A stretch of 42,724 nt of DNA from Limosilactobacillus coleohominis (lineage in GTDB: Bacteria > Bacillota > Bacilli > Lactobacillales > Lactobacillaceae). The notes beneath the pieces are model-generated. The model had not been told where the DNA came from. It searched no databases and saw nothing but the letters and a program-made list of their open reading frames with translations. The position numbers were made by a program, and so were the translations under genes. Shown here piece by piece: positions 4,997 to 20,168 of the stretch; position 1 is the stretch's first letter; every line of letters starts with the position of its first letter. The stretch is taken from NCBI RefSeq assembly GCF_016901675.1, contig NZ_JACJKU010000003.1:1-42724 (forward strand), given 5' to 3'.

Positions 4997-6307
4997 CTAT
5001 TTCTTGGATGATTTAAATTCATCATAATTTAGGATCAAGTTTAGGATGACAGCGGCTAGGCTCCCCATAACAACACCGTTACCAAGGATAATTTGAAGTT
5101 CAGTGTTGAGGTGCTGGAAAATTTGTGGATAAACGGTTACTCCCAAACCTAAGCCAATGGAAAGTGAAGATACCATTAAATTACTATTTTTTGAAAAGTC
5201 AACTTTATGGAGAATTTGCATTCCTTGGATACCAACCATTCCAAACATTACAACCATGGCACCGCCTAAAACAGGATCAGGAATCATCGTTGCTAATGCT
5301 CCTGCTTTAGGCAACAGTCCTAAAATTAATAGCAAGACAGCAGCATAGTAAACAGGACGACGGGTGCGGACACCAGACATTTTAAGGACGCCAACATTTT
5401 GTGAGAAGGTGGAATATGGGAATGTGTTGAACAAGCCACCTAAAATAGCAGCAATTCCTTCAGCACGGTAGCCACGTTTCATATCATCTTCAGTAATATT
5501 TTGGTGGGTTGCTTCTGCTAGGGCGAAGTAAACACCAGTGGATTCAATCATGGTGGTGATTGCCACTAACATCATTGTAATAATAGCTCCGGTATTAAAC
5601 GTTGGAACACCAAAGTAGAAGAAGCGTGGCAAGTGGAACCAGGCAGCACTTGTCACTGGTTGGGTTGAAACCATTCCCCAAACAGCGGCTGCCAGGGAAC
5701 CAATTAAGATTCCTAATAGAATGGCAATGGATTTAATAAATCCTTTTCCAAACCGGTTGATAAGAACAATAATGATAATTGTTAGAAAACCGATTACCAA
5801 GTTTTGAGTACTACCAAAAGATTTTGCTGTTGCAGTTCCGCCGCCAAGGTTTTGGAAGCCAACTGGTACCAATGTAAAACCGATAACAGTGATTAATGAT
5901 CCAGTAACAACTGGTGGGAATAATTTTTTCATTTTGGCAAAGAAACCAGCGATTAAGAAGATAAAAATACCGGCACAGATAATCGCACCATACATATATG
6001 TAATGCCCATCTTACTTCCAATAGATTCTAGTGGGGCGACCGATTGTACGGCACAACCAAGAACAACTGGGAGACCAATTCCCATGAGTGGTGTGCGGTG
6101 TAATTGTAAGAGGGTTGCGATACCACACATAAAAATATCGATAGAAACCAAGTAGGTCATTTGCGTTTGGTTAAAATGTAAAAAATTCCCAATCAGTAAC
6201 GGAACTAACACGTCACCAGAATACATTGCTAATAAATGTTGAAAACCTAATAATAAATTTTTCCCAAAATTAGTTGTTGGTGCTTCGTGTACAATTTGAC
6301 GATTCAA
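4997..6307 (-). CDS. pbuX: Xanthine/guanine permease, NCS2 family (PbuX-like)
   Basis: Integral membrane nucleobase:cation symporter of the NCS2 (xanthine/uracil permease) family, 436 residues with about 12-14 hydrophobic segments. Family features include the N-terminal FQHLLAMYSGDVLVPLL segment, the LGGLFNTFPYSTFSQNVG loop and the conserved Glu/Gln pattern around IESTGVYFAL. The NTFPYSTFSQN signature favours xanthine/purine rather than uracil as substrate. A guanine-type purine riboswitch with terminator directly precedes the gene, which supports purine transport. Start ATG lies behind AAGGGAGGATT. I infer uptake of xanthine or a related oxopurine for salvage; the exact substrate is not proven by sequence. 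Confidence 0.9.
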   Translation of the reverse strand: MNRQIVHEAPTTNFGKNLLLGFQHLLAMYSGDVLVPLLIGNFLHFNQTQMTYLVSIDIFMCGIATLLQLHRTPLMGIGLPVVLGCAVQSVAPLESIGSKMGITYMYGAIICAGIFIFLIAGFFAKMKKLFPPVVTGSLITVIGFTLVPVGFQNLGGGTATAKSFGSTQNLVIGFLTIIIIVLINRFGKGFIKSIAILLGILIGSLAAAVWGMVSTQPVTSAAWFHLPRFFYFGVPTFNTGAIITMMLVAITTMIESTGVYFALAEATHQNITEDDMKRGYRAEGIAAILGGLFNTFPYSTFSQNVGVLKMSGVRTRRPVYYAAVLLLILGLLPKAGALATMIPDPVLGGAMVVMFGMVGIQGMQILHKVDFSKNSNLMVSSLSIGLGLGVTVYPQIFQHLNTELQIILGNGVVMGSLAAVILNLILNYDEFKSSKK

Positions 6308-6323
6308 AATAATCCTCCCTTAA

Positions 6324-6355
6324 TAAAAAAACGAGTCCATTAGCCCGGACTCGTT
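6324..6355 (-). terminator. Riboswitch expression-platform terminator upstream of pbuX
   Basis: On the minus strand ACGAGTCC and GGACTCGT form an 8-bp stem (6331-6338 with 6347-6354) followed by seven U residues. It lies between the purine aptamer and the pbuX ribosome binding site. It is the expected off-switch when purine binds the aptamer. Confidence 0.9.
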
Positions 6356-6366
6356 ACTTCAAAAGT

Positions 6367-6431
6367 GCTTATAGTCTCATATTTACGGCATGAGGTAGAG
6401 ACGTCCGACCATATTACGGAATTATATAGGC
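6367..6431 (-). ncRNA. Purine riboswitch aptamer (guanine class)
   Basis: Read on the minus strand, the leader matches the purine aptamer. The P1 arms are GCCTATA and TATAAGC, the conserved core contains ATATGG, GTCTCTACC and CCGTAAAT, and the 3' junction is GACTATA. The pyrimidine at the position that discriminates the ligand is C (as in xpt-type guanine aptamers), not U, so guanine, hypoxanthine or xanthine is the expected ligand. It is followed by a terminator and then pbuX, so binding should end transcription early when purine is plentiful. Confidence 0.92.
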
Positions 6432-6446
6432 ATAAATATTGTTAGA

Positions 6447-6475
6447 ATTTTAGCATGACTTGCGAACAATAGCAA
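6447..6475 (-). promoter_or_regulatory. Promoter for the riboswitch-pbuX unit
   Basis: On the minus strand TTGCTA (6470-6475) and TAAAAT (6447-6452) are separated by 17 bases. Transcription would start near 6440, just upstream of the aptamer. It lies immediately downstream of the corA stop codon, so pbuX need not rely on read-through from corA. Confidence 0.6.
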
Positions 6476-18377: not shown

Positions 18378-18419
18378 AAAAAAGAGGCTCACCGTTTAAC
18401 ATTGCGAAACGGTGGGCCT
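18378..18419. terminator. Terminator shared by sufU and msrA
   Basis: AGGCTCACCGTTT (18385-18397) pairs with AAACGGTGGGCCT (18407-18419) with one G-U. The best U-tract (six to seven) is on the minus strand side, so it primarily ends the metQ-msrA transcript; the plus strand is followed by a weaker AT-rich tract. Confidence 0.8.
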
Positions 18420-18435
18420 AAATTTAATTTAAAAA

Positions 18436-18957
18436 CTAATCATGCCAATGTGCCTTTTTGAATTGCTCTCGTCCGCCAGCTTCTTGGAGTGCGTACCTTT
18501 CAGGATTCTTCTTGTAGAAGTCTTGATGGTAATCTTCAGCTAAATAAAACGGTTGAGCGTCTTCGATTTGAGTCACAATTGGTTGATCAAAAAGGCCACT
18601 TGCTTGTAAATTTTGTTTTGATTTTTCGGCAATGACACGTTGCTGAGCATTCTTAACAAAGATTACAGGACGGTAGTTATCACCGCGATCTTGAAATTGA
18701 CCGCTAGCATCGGTGGGATCTGTTTGGTGCCAGTAAATTTCAACTAATTTCTGGTAGGAAATTTTATTAGGGTCAAAGGTAATTCTGACGGCCTCCGTAT
18801 GTCCGGTAGTTCCGCTTTTAACTTGTTCATAGGTTGGATTAGCTACATGACCGCCAGTATAACCTGATTCCACTTTGATAATTCCAGGATAGGTGTCAAA
18901 AGGTTCCACCATGCACCAAAAACAACCGCCGGCAAAGATTGCTGTTTCGTATTTCAT
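18436..18957 (-). CDS. msrA: Peptide methionine sulfoxide reductase MsrA
   Basis: Reduces the S-form of methionine sulfoxide, free or in proteins, using thioredoxin. The active site GGCFWC places the catalytic Cys at 12, and 173 residues is the usual length. [21 protein letters not shown] and YWHQTDP are typical family segments. No C-terminal resolving cysteine is obvious, so Cys15 may play that part. It is separated from the upstream metQ-like gene by 14 bases, with AAAGGAGG in the gap, so both are controlled by the methionine T-box leader. Confidence 0.95.
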
Positions 18958-18971
18958 TATCCATTCCTCCT

Positions 18972-19817
18972 TTAATTTTTACCAAAAATTGGCCATGCAG
19001 CTACTTCTGAACCATGATAAGTTTTTTCAATGGCTTTTTTAGTAGCTTCAGTTTGGTATGCTTCAACAACTTTCTTGTATGTTTTGTTATCTTTATTTTT
19101 GGCTTGAACCGCAATAATGTTAACGTATGGCTTTGCTTTTTGATTAACAGGTTCTAAATAGATTGCATCCTTTTTAGGATTCAGATTGGCTGCTTCAGCA
19201 TAATTTCCATTAATGATTGAAGCATCAACAGAATTTAAAGCGCGGGCGGCAGTGGCTGGATCAACTTCCTTAAATTTTAGATTCTTTGGATTACTGGTAA
19301 TATCATTGAGTGAAGGCTTGATTCCAGAACTTTTCTTGACCTTAATCAGTCCAGCAGATTGGAGTACATTTAGTCCACGACCCAAAGTAGTTGGCTCGTT
19401 TGGAATTGCAACGGTTACGCCGTCAGGGAGGTCTTTAATATTTTGATATTTTTTAGAATAAACACCTAATGGCGAAATCACGGTATTCCCAATAGAAGTT
19501 AAGTGGGCGTGTTCACGTTTGTTATATGAGTCAAAGTAGTAACGGGTCAGGCAAGAATGCATATCAATCTTTCCTTCCTTCAGTGCCACGTCGGGTTGAA
19601 CGTAATCATTAAAAGTAACGTATTTAATAGTAATGCCTTGCTTTTTTAAACGCTGACGGACATTATTCCAGACCGGCTGTGAATCGGTTCCGACTAATCC
19701 AAGGCGAACAACTTTGTTTTGCTGGGTCGTTCGCTGATGAATAAAGCCTACTAATCCGCCGATAACAATGATCACAATAACAACTAAAGCAATTAATCCG
19801 GAATGACGTTTTTTCAT
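18972..19817 (-). CDS. metQ: MetQ/NlpA family methionine-binding protein with N-terminal membrane anchor
   Basis: Substrate-binding protein of the NlpA (MetQ) family, 281 residues, expected to capture methionine at the cell surface. Family segments include [44 protein letters not shown] and [14 protein letters not shown]. The N-terminus is a Lys/Arg start and a Val/Ile-rich helix (about residues 8-27) without a lipobox Cys, so it looks like an uncleaved anchor or a signal peptide rather than a lipoprotein. A methionine T-box leader lies upstream and msrA downstream; no metN or metP genes are adjacent. ATG follows AAAGGAGG at 8 bases. Confidence 0.87.
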
Positions 19818-19840
19818 AAGAAAATCCTCCTTTAATTAGA

Positions 19841-19885
19841 AAAGAAAAAACGTCCCTAGGAATAAAATTTTATTCCTAGGGACGT
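19841..19885 (-). terminator. T-box terminator hairpin
   Basis: ACGTCCCTAGGAATAAAA (19850-19867) is directly followed by its exact complement (19868-19885), with the U-tract on the minus strand at 19841-19850. The T-box bulge sequence can compete with its 5' arm through the antiterminator. Confidence 0.85.
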
Positions 19886-20133
19886 TGATCACGTGTTACC
19901 ACCCTAATTTAGTATCTGCAGAAGACACCCTCAGCCACTTCACCAATTACTCAGTAAAGTGAGGCATTGAATAACGGTTGCCATACCGTAGTTAATTTGC
20001 AGAAGCTCATTAACTAGATTTACTAAAGACCATCTTCATCAACTATTTCAGGATCACTTTGCAGCAATTAAGTGACTCTCTGGACGAGAAATAAGAGATT
20101 ACTCATCTTTTCTAATCATTTTTTAATTTAATT
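19841..20133 (-). ncRNA. T-box leader, methionine type, controlling metQ-msrA
   Basis: The 355-base gap before metQ is filled by this leader. On the minus strand the T-box AGGGTGGTAACACG (19892-19905) is followed by a perfect 18-bp terminator hairpin (19850-19885) and a U-run. Stem I shows GATTA and AAAGA arms near 20105-20118 pairing with TCTTT and TAAATC near 20014-20028, with an AGTA loop-E element. The specifier side reads GATGAAGATGG, offering ATG at 20031-20033 (or 20037-20039), hence methionine. Uncharged tRNA-Met should favour readthrough. Specifier choice is my reading, not computed. Confidence 0.85.
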
Positions 20134-20139
20134 GTCATT

Positions 20140-20168
20140 ATAATAAAAGATTAGTTCATGCTTGTCAA
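20140..20168 (-). promoter_or_regulatory. Promoter of the T-box-metQ-msrA unit
   Basis: On the minus strand TTGACA (20163-20168), 17 bases, TATTAT (20140-20145). The -35 is a perfect consensus. Transcription would begin near 20133. Confidence 0.75.

Follow-up and report, generated by a model that had tools for sequence, protein, structure and literature searches.

The window analysed here is a stretch of 42,724 nucleotides from a draft assembly (1.69 Mb, 240 contigs). On its minus strand a promoter-like site is followed by a T-box leader, a terminator, a metQ-like gene and msrA, in that order. The features are as follows:

20140..20168, minus strand: putative sigma-70-type promoter-like site, TTGACA-17-TATTAT (11/12 consensus matches)
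19875..20125, minus strand: T-box leader from Stem I to antiterminator (RF00230, 85.5 bits, E 3.9e-19; stem covariation)
20031..20033, minus strand: specifier codon AUG (Met) in the context GAAG-AUG-G (RF00230 alignment and register comparison)
19898..19901, minus strand: T-box bulge UGGU, complementary to the ACCA of a tRNA with A73
19849..19886, minus strand: intrinsic terminator, a 17-bp hairpin alternative to the antiterminator (terminator scan, fold z -6.5, covariation)
18972..19817, minus strand: gene for a MetQ/NlpA-family binding protein of 281 aa (PF03180, E 3.1e-81; AlphaFold model; structure comparison)
19545..19559, minus strand: codons of the pocket motif H87-S88-C89-L90-T91 (alignment; C89 corresponds to F98 and T91 to H100 of Neisseria meningitidis MetQ, NmMetQ)
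18436..18957, minus strand: msrA, peptide-methionine (S)-S-oxide reductase (TIGR00401, 207.4 bits)
18385..18419, no strand assigned: inverted repeat, a possible terminator serving both msrA and sufU where they converge (by eye)

A promoter scan of the region returned seven sites against 6.4 expected by chance; the site at 20168-20140 was the best of these and lies just upstream of the leader. A distance of 14 nt separates the metQ-like gene from msrA, a spacing that points to a single transcript. The inverted repeat beyond msrA was not picked up by the terminator scan. The neighbouring genes are sufU, convergent downstream, and an FMN-reductase-like gene upstream. Neither metN nor metP adjoins the pair among the neighbouring genes checked, which bears out the earlier note on this point, and with these two genes on its flanks a metNP concealed within the operon was ruled out. 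Elsewhere in the window, a purine riboswitch (RF00167, 66.3 bits) is found at 6352-6449 on the minus strand, directly followed by a gene (4997-6307) that by eye resembles a xanthine/uracil permease.

The earlier note had placed a T-box leader with an ATG specifier before a MetQ-family gene and msrA, and the matches to RF00230, PF03180 and TIGR00401 confirm this arrangement. In cmscan, RF00230 was matched over its full length (minus strand, 20125-19875). The score lies below the Rfam gathering score of 93 bits, so the leader was missed by the default Rfam scan and was found in E-value mode. Fourteen of the 24 T-box matches in the genome, the window leader included, are below the gathering score, among them those before tyrS, glyQ, trpS and argS (genes named by eye), and the leaders of orthologous loci score 66.9-92 bits (7/7 matched, of 13 named loci). 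Judged on its anatomy the leader is a T-box; the gathering score is a curation cut-off and not a property of the RNA. Matches to caiA, PyrR and rli38 were far under their thresholds, overlapped the terminator hairpin and were rejected.

The specifier AUG lies in the same register as the codons of five T-boxes that precede aminoacyl-tRNA synthetase genes of the same genome, recognised by eye: tyrS (TAC), pheS (TTC), glyQ (GGC), trpS (TGG) and argS (CGT). AUG also occupies the specifier loop in all 23 orthologous leaders readable on their contigs. The covariance search suggested at the outset as a check on the specifier upheld the AUG register, with stems that covary, and a non-ATG specifier was not seen. 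The covariation alignment comprised 26 leaders, namely 23 of the 24 genus loci described below, one being cut by a contig end, together with L150, L152 and L158. Both-side changes with pairing kept were found in 8-12 rows per pair of the upper Stem I helix (0 for its closing pair) and in 3-11 rows per pair of the lower Stem I helix, whose five pairs are broken or gapped in 4, 1, 2, 2 and 5 of the 26 rows. In the terminator 99.3% of cells are paired and 8 of 12 pairs show both-side changes; in the antiterminator 97.1% of cells are paired, and its outermost pair is broken in 5 of 25 distinct rows. None of 500 shuffles reached the covariation score of the antiterminator or that of the terminator, nor did any slid control, while the pair-type count of the antiterminator was no higher than that of shuffles (173/500). 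The covariation supports the antiterminator and terminator as mutually exclusive structures.

The UGGN bulge, here UGGU, fits a tRNA with A73 as its discriminator. The draft genome yielded no tRNA-Met (23 of its 27 tRNA loci were covered by the scan, and the remaining four lie within the flanks of these), and the nearest relative (G006) was therefore used for A73, which is present in all four CAU-anticodon tRNA genes read there (16 of 30 loci scanned). From their sequences, two of these genes appear to be initiators and one may be tRNA-Ile2. One S. aureus met T-box is described as specific for the initiator tRNA, according to a title in a reference list.

The protein encoded by the first gene contains the NlpA lipoprotein domain (PF03180, Lipoprotein_9; 272.5 bits against a cut-off of 27), whereas it falls below the cut-offs for canonical MetQ (TIGR00363, 188.4 against 228.85 bits; PRK11063, 192.3 against 374 bits). 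Its AlphaFold model has a pLDDT of 89.4 and, in the structure comparison, VIA Z scores of 23.5-29.4 to 23 MetQ/NlpA-type entries (rmsd 1.8-4.4, apart from a single model at 10.1); ModA follows as the next fold (Z 15.8). The protein is 91% identical to that of L. caecicola and 89% identical to that of L. coleohominis, and by this measure the source is a Limosilactobacillus near these two species. Its N-terminus is a hydrophobic membrane helix (model residues 5-30), and the N-terminal Cys of a lipobox is absent from the window protein and from 12 aligned named orthologues. The uncleaved anchor without a lipobox that the earlier note described is thus present. However, it is not unusual, because the MetQ of the genome's metQNP operon is likewise anchored without a lipobox, and for this reason we dropped the absent lipobox as a mark of a special scavenger. 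Unprocessed NmMetQ is reported still to stimulate MetNI, albeit less strongly (PMC8416018).

The msrA product scores well above the cut-off of the equivalog model TIGR00401 (108.1 bits) and carries the motif GCFWC, with Cys12 and Cys15 presumably in the catalytic role. It is the only PF01625 match in the genome and must therefore serve protein repair too. A single MsrB is encoded on contig C172, apart from the metQ-like/msrA unit. MsrA reduces free Met-S-sulfoxide, while MsrB is reported to be hardly active on the free sulfoxide (PMC3206869); these data would be in keeping with a split of tasks in which MsrA works for methionine supply. Oxidants induce msrB in L. reuteri, in a report whose text makes no mention of msrA (PMC6722424). 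In one relative (L123, G013) a second msrA, at 443-946, lies upstream of the T-box-metQ-msrA unit, and metQ is thus bracketed by msrA.

The MetQ-like protein differs from its canonical relatives at the ligand pocket. In NmMetQ, R156, N213 and N238 bind the amino and carboxyl groups of the ligand, and Y81, F98, H100 and Y103 surround the thioether (PMC6739813). Alignment to NmMetQ shows the backbone-binding Arg-Asn-Asn set to be conserved in the MetQ-like protein (R147, N203 and N233), and Y72 and Y94 are also conserved at matching positions. The Phe and His that pack against the thioether are replaced, F98 by Cys (C89) and H100 by Thr (T91) in N. meningitidis numbering. The motif H[SA]CLT was found in every one of the 37 orthologues, which comprise 25 distinct sequences (25/25), 12 of the 13 named loci being identical to others of the set. 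Moreover, C89 is invariant and the sole Cys of the extracellular domain in all 25 distinct orthologues. None of 67 other NlpA loci has Cys where C89 stands; Phe is found there in 53 and Tyr in 14. The place of T91 is filled by His in 37 of these loci, by Thr in 16, by Ser in 11 and by Asn in 3. As Thr is common in these other loci, Cys is the distinctive change. The FQH motif is kept by the MetQ of the genome's metQNP operon and by E. coli MetQ, and the alignment suggests that C89 faces the ligand.

This change is clade-wide and was absent from the first reading. Together with the neighbouring msrA, it favours the oxidised form over plain methionine as the candidate ligand. However, canonical NmMetQ is reported already to tolerate methionine sulfoximine (PMC8416018), so an altered pocket would be unnecessary for accepting an oxidised sulfur and may have a different ligand as its target. 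Another divergent NlpA paralogue of lactobacilli (L071, L073, L075, L089, L091 and L097) has a pocket altered elsewhere, with Tyr81 changed to Gly or Pro, His100 to Ser and Asn213 to Gly or Ser.

Conservation of the unit was assessed in a genus set of 50 Limosilactobacillus genomes, 26 of which contain a match with an E-value of 1e-80 or lower. All 24 with an orthologue at 68-100% identity have msrA next downstream; the two further matches (52-53%) are a different paralogue with no msrA beside them. An AUG T-box precedes the orthologue in 23/23 loci where the leader is on the contig. The gap between metQ and msrA is at most about 65 nt in the genus, except for about 335 nt in G049. Two loci with identical metQ (L038 and L120) have an insert of about 335 nt separating metQ from msrA, and in another genome (G009, L137) msrA is split over two frames, possibly by sequencing error. 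Compared by flanking ORFs of at least 110 aa, the window and 13 named loci form seven groups that have none of these ORFs in common, and the window's own neighbour genes recur only in the three nearest loci. These seven flanking contexts weaken inherited synteny as the whole explanation of the arrangement.

Two genomes with no metQ match at E 1e-80 (G022 and G041; loci L150 and L152) have an AUG T-box directly on msrA, and a third (G037, L158) retains the T-box before a frame-shifted metQ followed by msrA. A metQ remnant also stands ahead of msrA in L149 (G031), and L158, L149 and L137 possibly represent decay. A scan of 13 loci that lack an intact metQ beside msrA (L164 of G021 left out) placed the T-box directly on msrA in two and before the frame-shifted metQ in one; no T-box adjoins msrA in the other ten. 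In a family sample of 349 genomes, an orthologue at E 1e-90 or better was found in 11, all of them Limosilactobacillus (one of 40 genera). A record titled Lactobacillus corticis (L046) matches none of the unnamed sequences of the genus set and is possibly one occurrence outside the genus.

The genome contains two PF03180 genes. The second, on contig C207, heads metQ-metN-metP behind an AUG T-box of its own, with metP apparently split across contigs C207 and C231; the MetI model also gave four lower-scoring matches, which we took for other ABC permeases. A transporter encoded elsewhere, as the earlier note had supposed, was thus located by a genome search for metNP, and it is this MetNP that the orphan MetQ-like receptor most likely feeds. 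A genome search with PF01717 and PF02574 gave no match to a methionine synthase, which suggests a methionine auxotroph. Among the genome's 24 T-box matches, AUG was read as the specifier in three, those of metQNP, the metQ-like/msrA unit and an M20 peptidase, although specifiers were assigned by eye and some of the weaker ones are ambiguous. The third (L013, G000:C183; 1501-1747) precedes an M20-type peptidase gene that starts at 1792 and is a further candidate for a methionine-supply gene controlled by tRNA-Met. Ile-like T-boxes (ATC, by eye) were also seen before two fumarylacetoacetate-hydrolase-type genes (L006 and L010, on C220 and C179), and two similar Ile-like ATC T-boxes (L004 and L007, on C159 and C102) each stand before a gene for an OppA-like peptide-binding protein (genes and specifiers by eye).

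Computation supports the anatomy of the leader, its specifier, the order of the genes, their conservation together, a metNP elsewhere in the genome, the lack of a methionine synthase match and the changed pocket. We propose that the unit is a salvage operon for oxidised methionine, switched on at methionine shortage, and give this reading a probability of about one half. Uncharged tRNA-Met, whether initiator or elongator, would pair with the leader at its AUG specifier and at the UGGU bulge; this pairing would block the terminator, and the metQ-like gene and msrA would be transcribed together. The MetQ-like protein, tethered outside the cell by its uncleaved N-terminal helix, would capture oxidised methionine, most likely free methionine sulfoxide, and pass it to the MetN-MetP encoded elsewhere under its own Met T-box. 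In the cytosol, MsrA would turn the S-sulfoxide into methionine and tRNA-Met would be recharged. What we infer in this scheme is the response to tRNA in vivo, the identity of the ligand, the involvement of MetNP and the part that MsrA plays in nutrition.

Methionine is easily oxidised. Free methionine sulfoxide cannot be used for charging tRNA-Met (PMC3206869), and MetNPQ of B. subtilis imports methionine sulfoxide, according to a title cited in PMC6004538. Several observations count against the sulfoxide model: the orphan T-box metQ genes of L. paracasei respond weakly or not at all to lack of methionine (PMC6004538), the Rfam score of the leader is below gathering and the draft yielded no tRNA-Met. 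Moreover, NmMetQ tolerates sulfoximine, Thr is not special at its position, msrA is the sole copy in the genome and ten of the 13 loci described above have no T-box on msrA. More tentatively, the MetQ-like proteins of the H[SA]CLT clade may have arisen in Limosilactobacillus as receptors devoted to oxidised methionine and have become tied to MsrA. In a bolder form of this proposal, the lone pocket Cys would contact the sulfoxide directly.

If this dedicated-receptor reading is true, msrA would be a nutrient-supply gene under tRNA-Met control, and a repair enzyme would be employed and regulated as the final step of methionine acquisition. Joint control of receptor and MsrA by a tRNA-sensing RNA would imply that commensal lactobacilli use oxidised methionine as food, beyond its being damage, and the clade would offer a clean test case of a methionine-receptor pocket re-tuned at its sulfur-facing residues.

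The alternative that survives best is ordinary uptake and repair. Here the MetQ-like protein would be a second L-methionine receptor for MetNP, msrA would be co-regulated because methionine shortage and the oxidation of protein methionine coincide, and the pocket would reflect drift or tuning. The conservation of every backbone-binding residue and the Thr found at the pocket-His position in 16/67 other NlpA loci are consistent with this, as are the orphan T-box metQ genes without msrA in L. paracasei (PMC6004538) and the control of Shewanella msrA by MetJ (PMC4239095). However, H[SA]CLT is fixed in 25/25 distinct orthologues though identity drops to 67%, and drift would hardly fix a lone Cys that 0/67 other NlpA loci carry. 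The metQNP operon, moreover, already supplies a MetQ with the usual FQH. We consider ordinary uptake somewhat unlikely.

A different precursor ligand that needs the pocket Cys, such as a methionyl dipeptide, S-methylmethionine, homocysteine or a mixed disulfide, with msrA present for redox balance, appears decidedly unlikely. An invariant lone Cys near the ligand sulfur would suit thiol or disulfide ligands, GmpC, which has the same fold, binds Gly-Met (from a title cited in PMC6739813), and the additional AUG T-box before the M20 peptidase also points in this direction. Yet this does not account for the close association with msrA in seven different contexts, the unit has no gene for using such compounds, and NmMetQ is reported to bind homocysteine poorly (PMC8416018). 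That the gene order is an inherited neighbourhood, with metQ and msrA lacking a joint function, is highly improbable: the family-sample matches come from one genus (11/349 genomes), so common descent could preserve the order, and msrA has no adjacent T-box in the 10/13 loci, but the trio stays while flanking genes differ between species groups, and the T-box and msrA stay together in two genomes without metQ.

The salvage unit may be compared with several known systems. Its leader is like other Lactobacillaceae Met T-boxes (L. paracasei metQ1, metQ2 and metQ3NP), which have an AUG Stem I, a UGGN bulge, an antiterminator/terminator pair and metQ downstream (PMC6004538). Orphan metQ genes under a T-box are thus already known in L. 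paracasei, where they are reported as single-gene units, whereas here msrA is the second gene (PMC6004538); a word search of the text of that paper gave 0 hits for msrA. In two relatives msrA is the first gene after the leader, again unlike the L. paracasei metQ units. A methionine T-box signal is reported in L. reuteri, with no msrA in the main text (PMC10949432).

The literature searched gave no description of an msrA gene downstream of a T-box, though the catalogues of Rodionov 2004, Vitreschak 2008 and Gutierrez-Preciado 2009 may list it. The arrangement is not described in the accessible text of PMC4239095, PMC7438776, PMC10746273, PMC2885750, PMC10620731 or PMC10715087, nor did a word search find it in the main texts of Wels 2008 (PMC2494555) and a 2013 RNA-regulon survey (PMC3766115). 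Met T-boxes on metQ and methionine control of msrA are known, and msrA behind a T-box may be new.

The MetQ-like protein shares its fold, Pfam domain and Arg-Asn-Asn backbone set with MetQ of N. meningitidis and E. coli and with MetNPQ of B. subtilis. Unlike MetQ/NlpA proteins, it has no lipobox and no metNP neighbours, carries Cys and Thr for Phe and His, and scores below the NCBIfam cut-offs. It also has the fold of S. aureus GmpC (PG110; 1p99, which we take to be GmpC), with a sequence match of E 1.3e-53, but in the alignment GmpC keeps the FQH motif and the window protein does not. As for regulation, MetJ senses SAM. In B. subtilis, msrAB is controlled by the oxidative-stress regulator Spx (PMC2885750). 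The closer parallel to methionine control of msrA is Shewanella, where the gene is under the methionine repressor system MetJ. There the regulator is a DNA-binding repressor and no receptor gene is reported with msrA in the accessible text (PMC4239095), whereas here a tRNA-sensing RNA precedes a receptor gene and msrA.
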